Shown here piece after piece: positions 189 to 25,744 of a stretch of DNA of 25,782 nucleotides. Made by a program: the position numbers and the translations under genes. Under the pieces are notes generated by a model. That model saw only the letters and a list, made by a program, of their open reading frames with translations, ran no database searches and was not told the DNA's origin. The stretch is from Bacteroidaceae bacterium (GTDB lineage: Bacteria; Bacteroidota; Bacteroidia; Bacteroidales; Bacteroidaceae): positions 1-25,782 of the forward strand of contig JAFVTT010000029.1 in the NCBI GenBank assembly GCA_017503065.1, given 5' to 3'. The stretch's first letter is position 1, and the number at the start of each line of letters is the position of its first letter.

Positions 189-2192
189 TTACTTCTTCTT
201 AGGTTTGCGACGTGCCCAACCTTCTTCGTTGAAGTCGGGCATTTCGCCTTTTAGGGGAGAGGTGTCGGGATGCAGGAACTTCATCCAGTCCTCCTTGGTG
301 TAGTGATGTTGCTGAGCAGGGGACTTGGACGATGAGCGGTGAGCGGATGGGGGATTTGACGGTGAGCGGTGAGCGGTGAGCGGATGAGCGAGTTTTCCGT
401 TTTCCGTTTTCCGTTTTCCGTTTACCTTGTTTCTGCTCTCGCTTGCTCGCAAAGTTCTCCTTTCTCCTTTGACTTTAGCCCCTCCGGGCGTCGACCTTCG
501 GTTCTCCTTTCTCCTTTCGTCTTTATCGTTCTCGCTCTTGTCGGCAACATCGCACACCACACTACGACCTTTCACGGTCACTCCGTGCTTCATGGACTTG
601 ATGACATCCTGAGCCTGCTCTGCCGCCACTTCCACGAAGGTAAAACTCTTCATCAGGTCTATCTTGCCCACTTCCACCTGCATGCCCTTCGTGGCACGGT
701 TTATCAGGCCTATGACCTCCTTGGCATAGAATCCGTCTATCTTGCCCACATTGAGGAACAGACGTGTGTAGCCTTCCTCGGCCTGACGCGGACCGCCCTT
801 GCCATTGCGCTTGGTGCGCTCCTTGCCACTGCCTCCCTTGCCCTCCTGCACCTCCTCTATTTCCGGTGCATCGGCATAGTATGCCAGGAAGCGTCCGAAC
901 TCGCGGCTGACAATGCGCTTGATGAGTTCTTCCTTGTCGAGCCATTCCCAGCGGCGCACCACCTCGGGCAATACCTCGGCAATCTCCTCTTCCATCACGT
1001 CCACACGCTCTATGTCGTCTATGACACGGTAGAGTTGTTTCTGGCATATCTCCTTGCCAGAGGGCAGGGTGCCACGCTCGAACTGCTTCTGTATGGCCTT
1101 TTCAATGATACGTATCTTGCCCTTTTCGCGGACGTGAACTATGCTTATGCTCGTACCCTTCTTGCCGGCACGGCCTGTACGTCCGCTTCGGTGGGTATAG
1201 TTCTCGGTATCGTCGGGCAGACCGTAGTTGATGACATGCGTCAGGTCGTTCACGTCCAAGCCGCGTGCCGCCACGTCCGTGGCCACAAGCAACTGTGTGC
1301 GGTGCTGGCGGAACTTCTGCATGGTCAGGTCGCGCTGTTGCTGGGAGAGGTCGCCATGCAGGGCATCGGCATTGTATCCGTCCTGTATAAGTTTGTCGGC
1401 AATCTCCTGTGTCTCCATACGGGTACGGCAGAAGACGATGCCGTAGATTCGGGGATAGTAGTCCACCACACGCTTCAGCGCCAGATATTTGTCTTGCGCG
1501 CGTACCATATAATATATATGGTTCACATGCTCCGCTCCCTCGTTGCGCGACCCCACCTGTATCTCCTTCGTGTCCTTGAGGTACTGGCGTGCTATGGCCT
1601 CAATTTCCTTGCTCATTGTGGCGGAGAAGAGCAGTGTGCGGTGCTCCTCGGGTATACCGCCGAGGATTTCGTTCAGGTCTTCCTGGAAACCCATTGTGAG
1701 CATTTCATCTGCCTCGTCCAGTATCACGTTTCTTATGGTGGAGAGGTCGGCTGCTCCGCGCTTCATCAGGTCTATGAGTCGTCCCGGCGTAGCCACGAGC
1801 ACGTTTATGCCGCGCTTGAGGGCACGGATTTGTGCCTCTATGCTGGTACCTCCGTACACGGGCAGTATGCGCACGCCCTCGGAATGCTTTGAGAATCCCT
1901 CCAGGTCGTCGGCTATCTGCAGGCACAACTCTCTGGTGGGTGCCAGAATCAGGGAAACGGGATGCTGGGGCATTCCCTCGGTAAGTTGCACTATGGGCAG
2001 ACCGTATGCCGCCGTCTTGCCGGTACCTGTCTGTGCCAGTGCTACCATGTCGCCCTGCCATCCGCTTTCGTCCCCGTTGCCTAAGAGCACCGGTATCACC
2101 GCCTCCTGAATGGGCATGGGGTATTCATAACCTTGCTCGCCAATGGCTTGCAGTATCCTCTCGTTCAGTCCTAACTCTTCAAATGATTTCAT
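189..2192 (-). CDS. DEAD-box ATP-dependent RNA helicase with DbpA-type RNA-binding domain
   Basis: An RNA-unwinding ATPase that would act in the cytoplasm on ribosome assembly or mRNA structure. Visible motifs: Q motif PMPIQE (25-30), Walker A AQTGTGKT (53-60), PTREL (85-89), TPGR (135-138), DEAD (159-162), SAT (190-192), motif V with ATDVAARGLD (304-313) and motif VI HRSGRTGRAG (334-343). Residues about 475-552 resemble the DbpA RNA-binding domain of the CsdA/DeaD/DbpA group. The tail from about 631 (YTKEDWMKFL to a Lys/Arg-rich end) looks like a genuine C-terminus. Residues about 553-625 are odd: they are encoded by DNA that matches intergenic repeats elsewhere in this window (468-492 and 431-459, plus GTGAGCGG and CCGTTTT tandem runs). 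It is the last gene of a minus-strand cluster, 24 bp after the GNAT gene. The family is certain; the exact orthologue name is not. Confidence 0.97.
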   Translation of the reverse strand: MKSFEELGLNERILQAIGEQGYEYPMPIQEAVIPVLLGNGDESGWQGDMVALAQTGTGKTAAYGLPIVQLTEGMPQHPVSLILAPTRELCLQIADDLEGFSKHSEGVRILPVYGGTSIEAQIRALKRGINVLVATPGRLIDLMKRGAADLSTIRNVILDEADEMLTMGFQEDLNEILGGIPEEHRTLLFSATMSKEIEAIARQYLKDTKEIQVGSRNEGAEHVNHIYYMVRAQDKYLALKRVVDYYPRIYGIVFCRTRMETQEIADKLIQDGYNADALHGDLSQQQRDLTMQKFRQHRTQLLVATDVAARGLDVNDLTHVINYGLPDDTENYTHRSGRTGRAGKKGTSISIVHVREKGKIRIIEKAIQKQFERGTLPSGKEICQKQLYRVIDDIERVDVMEEEIAEVLPEVVRRWEWLDKEELIKRIVSREFGRFLAYYADAPEIEEVQEGKGGSGKERTKRNGKGGPRQAEEGYTRLFLNVGKIDGFYAKEVIGLINRATKGMQVEVGKIDLMKSFTFVEVAAEQAQDVIKSMKHGVTVKGRSVVCDVADKSENDKDERRKENRRSTPGGAKVKGERRTLRASESRNKVNGKRKTENGKLAHPLTAHRSPSNPPSAHRSSSKSPAQQHHYTKEDWMKFLHPDTSPLKGEMPDFNEEGWARRKPKKK
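330..515 (-). repeat. Repeat-derived DNA inside the helicase coding sequence
   Basis: This stretch encodes roughly helicase residues 560-621, between the RNA-binding domain and the terminal tail. Bases 468-492 are identical to 21826-21850 (25 bp, intergenic). Bases 431-459 match intergenic 6429-6457 with one mismatch. Bases 362-424 hold GTGAGCGG tandem units followed by repeated CCGTTTT, as in intergenic 6219-6250. The frame stays open throughout. The encoded stretch is basic and rich in Ser, Pro, Arg and Lys, so it is probably disordered. Confidence 0.8.
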
Positions 2193-4762: not shown

Positions 4763-6127
4763 TTACTTCTGCTCAACCTTTTCGTCCTTCTTCTTGGCAA
4801 GGTACTCGGGGAGAGCCATACCGGCCTGGTCAAAGAGGTCGTTCAGAGGAGGAACGGACTTCATGAGACCTGACAAGAAGTTGGCTGTGGAGGTCTGACC
4901 GTTTGCATTGCCGGCACCACCGTCCCAAACAGTAACCTTGTCGATATTGATACCCTTGATGGCATCCACCTGAGTCTTGACAAGTTCGGGCAATTTCTCC
5001 AGCAGGAGCAAGGTATATGCTTTGGTGGCATCGCCTCCGGCAGCCTTGATCATACGGTCGTAACCGTCGGCCTGCTTGGTAAGAATCTCGTACAGGCCCT
5101 TAGCCTCAGCCTCCATCTTTGCGAAGATGGCGTCAGCCTCACCCTTGGCGTTGACACGCTTCTGCTCGGCCTCGGCCTCGGCAGCGATGACAAGACGGCG
5201 TTTTTCAATCTCCTGGGCCACGATGACGTTGGCATTCTGGCTGGCACGGTCGCGCTCGGCACGTGCATCCTCGGCCTTCTGCTCGGCAGCATAAGCCTCC
5301 TCCAGAGCCTGAGCCTGGGCAACCTTCTCGGCAGCAATGGCCTTGCGCTGTGCCTCTGCCTCGCGCTCACGACGGTTTGCGTCAGAGTTGGCAATGGTAA
5401 TCTTGGCCTCGTTCTCACCCTGCACGGCCTGGGCATTGGCTTCGGCAGTACGGATACGGGTCTCGCGGACAGCCTCGGCACGACCGATTTCACCGACCTT
5501 CTCCTGCTCGGCAACGCGAACCTTGGCCTCGTTGATAGCCTTGGCGGCAGCCTCCTGACCGAGAGCCTCGATGTAGCCGCTCTCGTCCTTGATGTCGGTT
5601 ACGTTTACGTTGATAAGTCGAAGACCGATCTTCTTCAATTCCACCTCCACATTGGCGGTGATGGCCTCCAGGAACTTGTCGCGGTCTGAGTTCAGTTCCT
5701 CGATGCTCATGGTGGCGATAACCAGACGCAACTGACCGAACAGTATATCACGTGCCATTTCCTGAATCTGTGAAGACTGAAGACCAAGCAGACGCTCGGC
5801 GGCAGCCAACATTGACTCGGGTTCTGTACTGATACCCACGGTGAAACGGCAGGGAACGTCCACACGGATGTTCTGGCGTGACAGGGCGTTGGTAAGGTTG
5901 GCGTCAATGCCGATGGGGGTCAGCGACAGGTAGGCGTAGTCCTGGATTACAGGCCACACGAATGTACCGCCACCATGTACACACTTGGCAGAACCACGGT
6001 CACCAGTAGTACCGTATACTACAAGAATCTTGTCCGAGGGACAACGGCGGTAGCGGTTCAGGATGGCCATGACAAGCATGACGAACACCACTACACCTAC
6101 AACAATCAAATAAATAGGTTCAATCAT
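4763..6127 (-). CDS. Flotillin-like SPFH/Band 7 membrane-scaffold protein
   Basis: A 454-residue protein with one N-terminal membrane segment (about 5-23), an SPFH/Band 7 domain (about 28-210) and a long Ala/Glu/Lys/Arg-rich coiled coil (about 190-350). The C-terminal region carries the flotillin-type segment near LLLLEKLPELVKTQVDAIKG. Bacterial flotillins (FloT/YuaG, YqiK) organise membrane microdomains and protein complexes at the inner membrane. An NfeD/YuaF-like gene lies directly upstream on the same strand, the arrangement typical of floT operons, although here a 358-nt repeat-filled gap separates them and no TAnnTTTG box is seen in the gap. Whether the two are co-transcribed is an inference. 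Family assignment is secure. Confidence 0.94.
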   Translation of the reverse strand: MIEPIYLIVVGVVVFVMLVMAILNRYRRCPSDKILVVYGTTGDRGSAKCVHGGGTFVWPVIQDYAYLSLTPIGIDANLTNALSRQNIRVDVPCRFTVGISTEPESMLAAAERLLGLQSSQIQEMARDILFGQLRLVIATMSIEELNSDRDKFLEAITANVEVELKKIGLRLINVNVTDIKDESGYIEALGQEAAAKAINEAKVRVAEQEKVGEIGRAEAVRETRIRTAEANAQAVQGENEAKITIANSDANRREREAEAQRKAIAAEKVAQAQALEEAYAAEQKAEDARAERDRASQNANVIVAQEIEKRRLVIAAEAEAEQKRVNAKGEADAIFAKMEAEAKGLYEILTKQADGYDRMIKAAGGDATKAYTLLLLEKLPELVKTQVDAIKGINIDKVTVWDGGAGNANGQTSTANFLSGLMKSVPPLNDLFDQAGMALPEYLAKKKDEKVEQK

Positions 6128-6485
6128 AATGGATATGTTTTTAGGTTAGAGAATTAACGTTGAAGGTTAGGACCCCCTCAATCCCCCTGCAGGGGGAGGG
6201 GCGATTAACGTTTAACGGGTGAGCGGTGAGCGGTGAAAGTTTTCCGTTTTGACTTTGTCGAGCCTGCTTCCGCTCGGCTATGTAGGGACGCTGCGTGCAG
6301 CGTCCGAGAAGATAACCATGCGGACGCTGCACGCAGCGTCCCTACCATGTTTCTGTACTCTGTACTCTGTTAATCCCGCTCTGCGGTCTTGACTTTGCTC
6401 ATGCTCGGCATAATTCAAACAAGTTTGATTCTGCTCTCGCTTACTCGCAAAGTTCTCTGTACTCTGTACTCTGTTCTCCGTTTTC
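6128..6485. repeat. Repeat-mosaic spacer between flotillin and NfeD genes
   Basis: No gene is visible. From left to right: a CCCCCTGCAGGGGG palindrome (6183-6196); GTGAGCGG tandem units followed by AGTTTTCCGTTTT (6219-6250); an inverted pair of 24-nt arms (6282-6305 and 6322-6345); CTGTACTCTGTACTCTGTT twice (6353-6371 and 6457-6475); a CCGC/GCGG module (6372-6390) shared with 21702-21720; and a 29-nt stretch (6429-6457) shared with 431-459 inside the helicase gene. The modules recur in other spacers in different orders. Confidence 0.8.
6282..6345. repeat. Inverted pair of GTAGGGAC palindromes
   Basis: The 24-nt arm at 6282-6305 is the exact reverse complement of 6322-6345. Each arm is itself nearly palindromic (GGACGCTGC/GCAGCGTCC), so either a long hairpin or two small ones can form. 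GTAGGGAC lies at the outer left and GTCCCTAC at the outer right, the same architecture as 21743-21808. Confidence 0.85.
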
Positions 6486-12128: not shown

Positions 12129-12944
12129 ATGGACAAGATAAACGTCATAAAGGTTGGAGGTGCCGTAGTAGAGAACGAGGCATCGCTGAAGGAACTCATC
12201 AACCAGTTCGCCACTATGCCGGGTTATAAGGTGCTGGTGCATGGCGGAGGACGCTCGGCCACCAGGATAGCATCGCAGTTGGGCATAGAAAGCCGTATGG
12301 TGGGCGGCCGCCGCATTACCGACGAGGACATGCTCCAGGTAGTGACCATGGTGTACGGCGGTCTGGTGAACAAGCGCATCGTTGCCGCCCTGCAGGCCAG
12401 AGGAGTGAATGCCATTGGCCTGACCGGTGCCGACATGGACATTATCCGAAGCCACAGGCGTGAGCCGAAGATGGTTACCCTGGACGACGGCACACAGGAA
12501 ATGGTGGACTTCGGTTTCGTGGGCGACGTGGACCATGCCAACGGTCATCGCCTGGCCTCACTTGTCAAGGCCAGGGACGGCATACAGGCTGCAGTGCCTG
12601 TGGTGGCACCGCTCACACACGATGGAATGGGCAATATCCTCAACACCAATGCCGACACGATGGCCGCCACGGTGGCAAAGGCCCTGACGGAGGAGTTCGA
12701 CGTTACCCTGACCTATTGCTTCGAGAAACCCGGCGTGATGGCCGATGCAGAGGACGACGACAGTGTCATCCCATCCATCAACACAGAATCCTATGCCCGC
12801 CTGAAGGCCGACGGCATAGTCAGCGGTGGCATGATTCCCAAACTGGACAATGCCTTTGACAGCATTTCATCGGGAGTGAAGCGCGTAGTTATCACACACT
12901 TCATGGACATACAAGCCAGCATGGGAACGGTGATAGAGAAGTAG
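12129..12944 (+). CDS. argB: Acetylglutamate kinase (possibly N-succinylglutamate kinase)
   Basis: Amino-acid-kinase-fold enzyme of arginine biosynthesis, phosphorylating the gamma-carboxyl of N-acylglutamate. It has 271 residues. ATP-site elements: K8 in IKVGGAVV, the glycine loop HGGGRSAT (38-45), and SGGMIPKLDNAF near 213-224. The acyl-glutamate site includes NTNADTMA (162-169). The usual HGGGPxI loop reads HGGGRSAT here. Bacteroidetes such as B. fragilis use N-succinylated intermediates, so the natural substrate may be N-succinylglutamate; that is inferred from the taxon, not from this sequence. It is the last gene of the topA-aroK-speA-argB run and is followed by a strong terminator. Confidence 0.93.
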   Translation: MDKINVIKVGGAVVENEASLKELINQFATMPGYKVLVHGGGRSATRIASQLGIESRMVGGRRITDEDMLQVVTMVYGGLVNKRIVAALQARGVNAIGLTGADMDIIRSHRREPKMVTLDDGTQEMVDFGFVGDVDHANGHRLASLVKARDGIQAAVPVVAPLTHDGMGNILNTNADTMAATVAKALTEEFDVTLTYCFEKPGVMADAEDDDSVIPSINTESYARLKADGIVSGGMIPKLDNAFDSISSGVKRVVITHFMDIQASMGTVIEK

Positions 12945-13000: not shown

Positions 13001-13036
13001 GTTGTTAGGTCCCGGACATAGTGGCGGTAATTTTTT

Positions 13037-13145
13037 GTTGTACTATCAACAGAGCAGTGTTGATGTGACAACAGAACGGTGTTGATACTACAACAAAGAC
13101 AATGCTGACGCGACGGCAGGACTGTGTTGATGCGACGACAAAGGC
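13037..13145. repeat. Array of five tandem 20-23-bp units, each a mini-hairpin
   Basis: Units lie at about 13037-13056, 13057-13078, 13079-13101, 13102-13123 and 13124-13145. Units 2-5 follow the pattern TGTTG-N6-CAACA, a 5-bp stem with a 6-nt loop; unit 1 is GTTG-N6-CAAC. Sequence changes keep the pairing: unit 4 has TGCTG with CGGCA and unit 5 has TGTTG with CGACA (G-U). The spacing is about two helical turns. The array lies between the argB terminator and the promoter of the regulator gene. It could be a set of operators or a structured RNA; no gene is visible in it. Confidence 0.75.
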
Positions 13146-18600: not shown

Positions 18601-18615
18601 GAGTCATGTAAATAG

Positions 18616-18663
18616 AAAAACGGAAAGGTGAAAACGGAAAACTGTTTTTACCTTTCCGTTTTT
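18616..18663. terminator. Terminator after the GH2 gene
   Basis: A perfect 14-bp stem (18616-18629 with 18650-18663) ends in a run of T and encloses a further AAAAC/GTTTT pairing. It begins 16 bp after the stop codon and is built from the AACGGAAAA/CCGTTTT motif that recurs in other spacers of the window. Confidence 0.8.
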
Positions 18664-18711
18664 ACGTTTACACATTTCCGTTCTCATATTACCGTTTTCC
18701 GTTCAATATAT

Positions 18712-21535: not shown

Positions 21536-21700
21536 AACCGAAATCGGTCATTAATGTTATGATGATAATAGCCTTGGTTTTTGAACAGATGTTTTGGCAC
21601 TTTGAGGGCGCAATAGGGTTCCTTTGTAAGCGAGAAGCGACGAAACAGACGCAAAAAGGATGGCTTTATTAGTGCATAAGAACCTAATGACCTTTGGGTT
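21536..21700. repeat. Dispersed palindromic element, copy B (complete)
   Basis: This is the complete copy of the element cut at position 1. The left end AACCGAAATCGGTCATTA (21536-21553) and right end TAATGACCTTTGGGTT (21685-21700) form imperfect terminal inverted repeats. Much of the interior is also self-complementary, so about 165 nt can fold back on itself. No reading frame and no obvious target-site duplication are seen. It lies between the Na/phosphate terminator and the 3' end of the TrhA gene. Confidence 0.8.
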
Positions 21701-21701
21701 C

Positions 21702-21850
21702 AATCCCGCCTTGCGGTCTTAAATCTGCTTCAGTTAGGTAATGTAGGGACTCGGCATGCCGAGTCCGCTTTGATACTGTTTTTCGGACACGGCATGCCGT
21801 GTCCCTACCATACTCTCGTCTGCGTTTTGACTTTAGCCCCTCCGGGCGTC
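21702..21850. repeat. Repeat mosaic: CCGC/GCGG module, two palindromes and 25-bp shared repeat
   Basis: The rest of the 494-nt gene-free stretch after the Na/phosphate gene. 21702-21720 resembles 6372-6390. 21747-21766 and 21785-21804 are perfect 20-bp palindromes (GGACTCGGCATGCCGAGTCC and GGACACGGCATGCCGTGTCC), framed by GTAGGGAC and GTCCCTAC (21743-21808). 21826-21850 is identical to 468-492, which lies inside the helicase gene. The remaining bases to 21921 are pyrimidine-rich with CCGTTTT and show no gene. Confidence 0.8.
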
Positions 21851-21921
21851 AACTTACGGTTATTCGCCTACGCTCATCAAGCTCCGCAAGTCCATTTTCA
21901 CCTTTCCCCTTTCCGTTTTAA

Positions 21922-25706: not shown

Positions 25707-25744
25707 AGAATCCCTTGGCAGGGCGCGCCCTGCCAAGGGATTCT
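25707..25744. repeat. 38-bp perfect palindrome
   Basis: Two 19-bp arms meet at a CGCG centre with no loop, directly after the second 17-bp repeat. It could act as a terminator or as a REP-like element; it lacks the GGGAC...GTCCC core of the other palindromes. Confidence 0.75.

Follow-up and report, generated by a model that had tools for sequence, protein, structure and literature searches.

Intergenic repeats as predicted protein sequence in loops and linkers of housekeeping enzymes of herbivore-gut Bacteroidales

The helicase gene and its linker

As listed in Table 1, the stretch of DNA analyzed in this study (25,782 nucleotides of a Bacteroidaceae contig, JAFVTT010000029.1; hereafter, the window) carries a DEAD-box RNA helicase gene on the minus strand and several spacers filled with short repeats. 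The helicase consists of a DEAD domain (residues 27-199), a Helicase_C domain (251-343) and a DbpA RNA-binding domain (477-546), followed by a hypervariable linker and a conserved tail. AlphaFold models of the helicase and of the DNA ligase (LigA) discussed below were too poor for use, the mean pLDDT over the whole protein being 40 and 35, respectively.

Table 1. Coordinates of the helicase features and of the intergenic repeats in the window
Position	Strand	Feature	Remark
189..2192	-	DEAD-box RNA helicase gene	667 aa
189..329	-	Conserved C-terminal tail (..YTKEDWMKFLHP..PDFNEEGWARRKPKKK)	EEGWA in 20/30 genus orthologues; 0 intergenic 12-mers
330..535	-	Hypervariable linker built of intergenic repeat modules	76% intergenic 12-mer coverage
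331..349	-	CCGCTCA-type heptamer units, peptide PSAHRSS	
360..383	-	CCGCTCA heptamer array, peptide PLTAHRS	361-379 identical to intergenic 6218-6236
392..423	-	CGGAAAA heptamer array, 4.6 units, peptide NGKRKTENGK	
427..459	-	CGAG module (TTTGCGAGCAAGCGAGAGCAGAA), peptide LRASESRNK	Near copy at 6425-6457
455..470	-	AGGAGAA heptamers, peptide KGERR	
468..503	-	M2 module (GACTTTAGCCCCTCCGGGCGTCGACCTTCGG on the plus strand), peptide NRRSTPGGAKVK	Copy at 21826-21861
502..518	-	AGGAGAA heptamers, peptide ERRKE	
6170..6200		GGACCCCCTCAATCCCCCTGCAGGGGG module, intergenic	Related module in frame in the G089 helicase linker (L133)
6218..6256		GGTGAGC array, then TTTTCCGTTTTGACTTT, intergenic	
6282..6345		Pair of GTAGGGACGCTG..CAGCGTCC palindromes, intergenic	Close copy in frame in the G095 helicase linker (L134)
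6352..6393		TCTGTAC heptamers and CCCGCTCTGCGG hairpin, intergenic	
6425..6482		CGAG module copy, then CTCTGTA heptamers, intergenic	
18609..18703		AAAACGG / TTTTCCG units in both orientations, intergenic	
21784..21811		Palindrome GGACACGGCATGCCGTGTCC, intergenic	In frame in the G094 helicase linker (L132)
21823..21861		M2 module copy, intergenic	

A preliminary description of this DNA had noted that positions 330-515, encoding residues 560-621, are made of modules that also occur in intergenic DNA, and this was confirmed. When the helicase gene was compared with the remainder of the window on either strand, the longest exact match was 25 bp; in 30 dinucleotide-preserving shuffles, it averaged 13.0 bp and never exceeded 15 bp. 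Positions 468-492 are identical to 21826-21850 over 25 bp, positions 431-459 differ from 6429-6457 by one mismatch only, the GGTGAGC run at 361-379 is repeated exactly, and the TTTTCCG run also has its match, at 6238-6256 (AGTTTTCCGTTTTGACTTT). The tandem-repeat rows of the linker segment have a period of 7 in four of five cases and of 30 in the remaining one. When a sample of about 67 kb (the window and stretches from two sister genomes) was used as the source of intergenic 12-mers, these covered 76% of 330-535, 8.9% of 536-2192 and 0% of the tail. The coverage of other genes in the window is 0-19%, save for 12129-12944 at 49%, where a piece of a homologous gene was perhaps called intergenic in the sample. 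As had also been described, the repeat segment lies in frame between the RNA-binding domain and the conserved basic tail, an arrangement that recalls the Rickettsia palindromic elements (RPEs).

Did the repeats create a new linker, as had been proposed? A variable stretch follows the RNA-binding domain in all 30 aligned orthologues from the genus, and the EEGWA tail is shared by 20 of them, which speaks against this proposal. By a crude measurement, the genus linkers are about 40-115 aa in length (one of the 30 was not measurable), and a crude motif search found a lag-7 array (at least 9 matches) in none of the 29 measurable ones. The preliminary description had also considered that orthologues may carry a linker of equal length and similar sequence without intergenic copies of it; the likeness in length was found, while the rest was not. 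Judging from these alignments, the linker appears to be old and its content young.

The content differs even between close relatives. The G001 helicase is 93% identical to that of the window, while its linker carries the GTAGGGACACGTGTGTCCG palindrome in place of the window modules. Each of five sister genomes has a different combination of modules in its helicase linker. The linker of G094 (L132) has CGGAAAA units and the GGACACGGCATGCCGTGTCC palindrome; that of G089 (L133) has CGGAAAA, M2, CCGCTCA and a CCTACAGGGGGATTGAGGGGGTCC module; that of G095 (L134) has a GTAGGGGCGCTGCGTGCAGCGTCC palindrome and a CCGCAAAGCGG hairpin; and that of G087 has a CGAG module. Among 119 motif-bearing proteins of the best 120 hits, 73 distinct linkers were counted, point differences included, and a heptamer peptide occurs in 62 of these listed proteins. 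The P0111 helicase, found on 79 listed contigs, has a linker without recognizable modules. Some distant helicase linkers have their own unrelated heptamers (AAGAGGT, AAGGAGC) in an open frame (L047:7157-7216, L051:1504-1537 and L099:7336-7355). In addition, heptamer arrays of the ACTATGG/AACTATG type lie about 25-55 bp upstream of the start of the helicase match in other relatives (L039, L056, L059, L062 and L064, at about 5946-5978).

The intergenic repeat vocabulary

I searched 139 genomes of the genus for two of the repeats. M2 was found in 21 copies (two mismatches or fewer) in five genomes, and its reversed control in none of the 139; the CGGAAAA array was found in seven genomes, and its reversed control pattern in two. 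In a 614-kb set from G001, G094 and the window, 5.1% of the intergenic bases fall within repeat 14-mers, as against 0.29% of the coding bases, where coding means ORFs of at least 100 aa and the stretches are not random but picked partly around known hits. The commonest 14-mers in this set include the CGGAAAA, CCGCTCA and GGACACGGCATGCC types. The modules and the heptamers are neighbors: a heptamer lies within 20 bp on the 5′ side of 20 of 36 M2 copies and within 24 bp on the 3′ side of 23 of 36, as compared with 3.1% (193/6200) of random intergenic 20-mers. In L036-L063, 63 arrays have a lag of 7, and every other lag from 4 to 12 accounts for five at most; in the more distant L064-L110, there are 31 arrays at lag 7, 29 at lag 8 and 15 at lag 9. 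In some copies of M2 in L145 and L150, the 14-bp blocks are themselves duplicated. Because of this duplication, M2 may itself be built in a 7-bp register.

The modules differ in their folding potential. The GTAGGGAC..GTCC modules, which are perfect palindromes tagged with GTAG, are predicted to form a stable hairpin (z -3.67). M2 was also considered as a strong RNA hairpin, but its fold, no better than that of shuffled sequences (z -0.63), does not support this. Other repeats of the window were noted in passing: a 120-bp dispersed repeat whose two copies are 85% identical, one just downstream of the helicase gene (14-133) and the other in the 21.5-kb spacer (21573-21692); an imperfect 45-bp tandem repeat (13036-13143) in the spacer after 12944; and a perfect 19-bp inverted repeat with zero spacer (25707-25744) near the window end.

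Inserts in other housekeeping genes and their reading frames

Codon usage was scored on both flanks of the array sites listed for two patterns in G001 and G094. The score was above 0.08 on both sides in 15 of 77 distinct contexts and above 0.2 in eight of them; the 95th percentile for wrong frames is 0.20, and contexts below 0.2 were used only where backed by orthologues or a family match. An M18 aminopeptidase has five CGGAAAA units in G094 and GGTGAGC units in G001 at one and the same site, in proteins that are 98% identical. The M18 loop is shorter in most other aligned members of the genus (M18 was found in 13 of 16 genomes).

The LigA stretch that runs from EIIPK to CPVC measures 28-33 aa in 11 genus genomes (L352-L363 minus L358, which gave no match). 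These include G025, which has its own AAAATTC-like units, and the sister genomes G087 and G095, where the loop is short and plain though both genomes are module-rich. In G094 and G001, its length is 75 and 76 aa, respectively, and the modules are entirely different. Among the best 120 hits, it is 54-98 aa and comes in 41 forms, point differences counted. The sugar-nucleotide reductase (RmlD) has five different loops in five sister genomes, while in the outgroups G005, G026, G034 and G036 the loop is shorter and free of these repeats; most outgroup loops of the inserted proteins lack the repeats. Among the best 120 RmlD hits, 103 segments are distinct (point differences counted) and 109 have a heptamer peptide. 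As compared with solved structures, LigA has 58 residues where its relative 2owo has 12, and the loops of the RmlD relative 1vl0 and the M18 relative 3wt4 are also shorter than those found here. The LigA, RmlD and M18 segments are thus insertions relative to these solved relatives.

In G001 and G094, a signal-peptide protein contains both heptamers; G095 has a degenerate form, and they are lacking from G089 and G005. Arrays were also found in Mfd (partial gene), the YgiQ tail, a UpxY protein, a PspC-like protein and proteins with a YDLSGRRV tail. A near-identical stretch of 34 residues (GTDAGSESRSK..GGKDREAGLKRKTE) is common to several LigA alleles and Mfd. A repeat linker between FeoA and FeoB is open in G094 (L291) and has an in-frame TGA in G001 (L322:1560-1760), so that the fusion is split or broken there. 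In L304, L305, L326, L327, L182 and L175, arrays or M2 lie right before a YDLSGRRV-like C-terminal tail.

How often do the loops change between close relatives? Among pairs whose flanks differ by 2% or less, loop similarity is below 0.8 in 649 of 1222 pairs for the helicase (whose right flank is short), 727 of 4532 for LigA and 88 of 124 for RmlD; the pairs come from the best 120 hits per search and are not population frequencies. Since protein searches give mainly intact proteins and the best 120 hits were taken, these counts are blind to broken alleles as well as to population frequencies. Every genome behind the counts is a draft, and short-read assemblers cope poorly with repeats.

Because 7 cannot be divided by 3, a heptamer array without stop codons encodes one and the same peptide of seven residues whichever frame of a given strand is read, and the frame therefore matters only for the total length. 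The CGGAAAA array encodes RKTENGK and the CCGCTCA array PLTAHRS. The CGGAAAA, AGGAGAA and GTACAGA arrays are open in six frames, and the CCGCTCA array in three frames of one strand. On either strand, M2 has two open frames out of three, and both of those on the protein strand are in use, giving NRRSTPGGAKVK in the window and TEGRRPEGLKSK in another gene, from G001 (L182). The third frame of M2, which contains a stop codon, was not met in the alleles read. Likewise, the CGAG module is read as LRASESR in the window and as SASRREQ in L135.

With stricter coding flanks, 78 contexts gave eight open and in-frame cases, no frame-shifted case, one case in the same frame with a stop codon, and 69 that fell into none of these classes. 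Since the eight include two orthologous pairs (L304/L327 and L305/L326), they represent six independent events; with one third expected in frame, the chance of six out of six is near 0.001. CGGAAAA lies on the coding strand in seven of the eight. The LigA array among them is on the opposite strand and encodes FRFPFSV, and LigA also occurs with a sense array. The same-frame case with a stop inside (L302:1496) may be the end of a gene. Real cases escape the strict test, among them RmlD and the helicase, and so does the FeoA-FeoB stop of G001, the last because the flank there is itself repeat; it thus undercounts open and broken cases alike. Taken at the level of sequence, intergenic repeats are apparently read in frame, as predicted protein, in loops or linkers of the RNA helicase, the DNA ligase and the sugar-nucleotide reductase.

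Comparison with known elements and origin of the inserts

In-frame repeats in housekeeping genes, ligase and RNA helicases included, are already known from RPEs and intragenic REPs, as described in the accounts cited here. RPEs are elements of about 150 bp in ten families, each with a conserved peptide, and the present repeats are like them in being spread over the genome and lying in frame within unrelated protein genes (PMC10969869). By that description of RPEs, the present repeats are set apart as mosaics of heptamer arrays and 20-55-bp modules with many alleles per site; M2, moreover, encodes two peptides instead of a conserved one. Intragenic REPs are short palindromic sequences inside ORFs, of which many belong to replication and repair; the carriers reported from O. 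terrae include a DNA ligase and RNA helicases, and flexible linkers and loops have been proposed as neutral sites (PMC3733652). Unlike these, many of the present inserts are heptamers, not palindromes. The same source places GTAG repeats in Proteobacteria, Cyanobacteria, Chloroflexi and the PVC group and, for Bacteroidetes, gives CGTC instead of GTAG (PMC3733652). The GTAGGGAC..GTCC module fits the GTAG type by eye. The form of a GTAG REP (a 20-40-bp palindrome with GTAG at one end) is seen in GTAGGGACGCTG..CAGCGTCC and GTAGGGACACGG..CCGTGTCC and not in the other modules. In contrast to GTAG REPs, no RAYT was found in five module-rich draft genomes (69-88% complete). M2 has CGTC beside its hairpin, with a predicted inner stem of 4 bp and a fold no better than shuffles, where the CGTC REP is described with a stem of 8-9 bp and a loop of 4-5 bp. 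Of the MITE traits, neither terminal inverted repeats nor a target-site duplication was seen in a non-systematic look at the M2 flanks and the M18 site.

The heptanucleotide repeats of Xanthomonas, Nostoc and Calothrix are similar in being genome-wide and mainly intergenic 7-bp tandem arrays; those of Xanthomonas vary extensively among close relatives, and intragenic ones were also counted (PMC4692102). As far as they are described there, they differ from the present arrays, which have other units, several unit types per genome and a mosaic in-frame use in conserved proteins. Enterobacterial RU elements are also intergenic repeats kept as open reading frames in annotated genes, but their units are 103-168 bp and likened to MITEs, and strain-level mosaics do not figure in the account as described (PMC2759123). 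In those parts of the literature that the search covered, heptamer arrays were not met in combination with a vocabulary of many modules, reading in two frames and mosaic loops at the strain level; among the open-licence papers listed on heptanucleotide, intergenic, in-frame or RPE-like repeats, none was on this lineage.

I propose that, in herbivore-gut Bacteroidales, intergenic repeats probably enter the loops and linkers of protein genes by slippage and copying and are filtered by selection. An uncultured lineage shares a vocabulary of arrays of 7-bp units and modules of 20-55 bp, some palindromic. The arrays would grow by slippage, and the modules may be copied via shared heptamers, through ectopic recombination or template switching in replication; slippage and copying between modules would together bring repeats into protein-gene loops and linkers. 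Several modules are open in two or more frames. Selection would purge most insertions that break the frame or the fold, and the survivors would sit at tolerant sites, keep being replaced and give rapidly diverging loops. The helicase linker of the window may be one such tolerant site. I infer the copying mechanism and the near-neutrality of the inserts; no copying event was seen, and no target-site duplication was found.

Might a transposase have moved the modules into coding sites as miniature transposons of the REP, MITE or RPE type? RAYT transposases have been proposed as the movers of GTAG REPs, which the GTAG-tagged GTAGGGAC..GTCC palindromes resemble, also in their stable hairpin (PMC3733652). 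A transposase route is possible for these GTAG palindromes. For the modules in general, it is doubtful: a search that covered the Y1 family (PF01797) was positive in one of 12 genomes (G036) and in none of the five module-rich ones, whose incompleteness means that a transposase could be missed. Moreover, terminal inverted repeats are not visible by eye in the heptamer arrays and M2, the M18 site shows no target-site duplication, and the M2 hairpin does not rise above shuffles.

Slippage in place, by which basic low-complexity linkers would grow their own heptamers and resemble intergenic DNA by convergence, is improbable as the sole cause. Many bacterial genomes have an excess of heptameric repeats, for which an explanation by slippage has been put forward (PMC4692102), and the more distant helicase orthologues do have unrelated heptamer arrays of their own. 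Period 7 dominates in L036-L063, which also agrees with local growth, though not in the more distant L064-L110. Nevertheless, this reading is already strained by the exact M2 match: M2 and CGAG are non-repetitive and, like the palindromes, match intergenic copies, and slippage cannot create them. In addition, the M18, RmlD and LigA sites have no basic linker in most outgroups. An assembly artefact, considered in the preliminary description, is unlikely for the helicase allele of the window because the identical 667-aa protein (P0001) recurs on 10 listed contigs. Chimeras in which short-read assembly joined genes to intergenic repeats are, as a general explanation, barely credible. G001 and G094 are drafts, and repeat misassembly is documented in Bacteroidia (PMC5771137), but identical module-bearing alleles also recur for LigA (P0177, 12 listed contigs) and RmlD (P0351, 21 listed contigs), the frame was kept in eight cases against none, and sister species have the site in common and not its content.

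Beyond slippage and copying filtered by selection, I consider it conceivable, though rather unlikely, that the heptamer arrays serve as frame-neutral adaptors for an ongoing exchange of cassettes, in which modules with heptamers on either side would be copied from intergenic stores into fixed loops of housekeeping proteins at a rate high enough to yield strain-specific loops. If this is true, proteins would be diversified without a dedicated target gene or a diversity-generating enzyme.

In these bacteria, non-coding repeats appear to become protein sequence repeatedly in housekeeping enzymes, and many stages are visible in close relatives. They may thus offer a natural series for studying how a folded protein takes in an arbitrary peptide, what filter is set by frame and stop codons, and whether the loops only put up with the peptide or make use of it. 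Such loops would also disturb orthologue alignments and strain typing.
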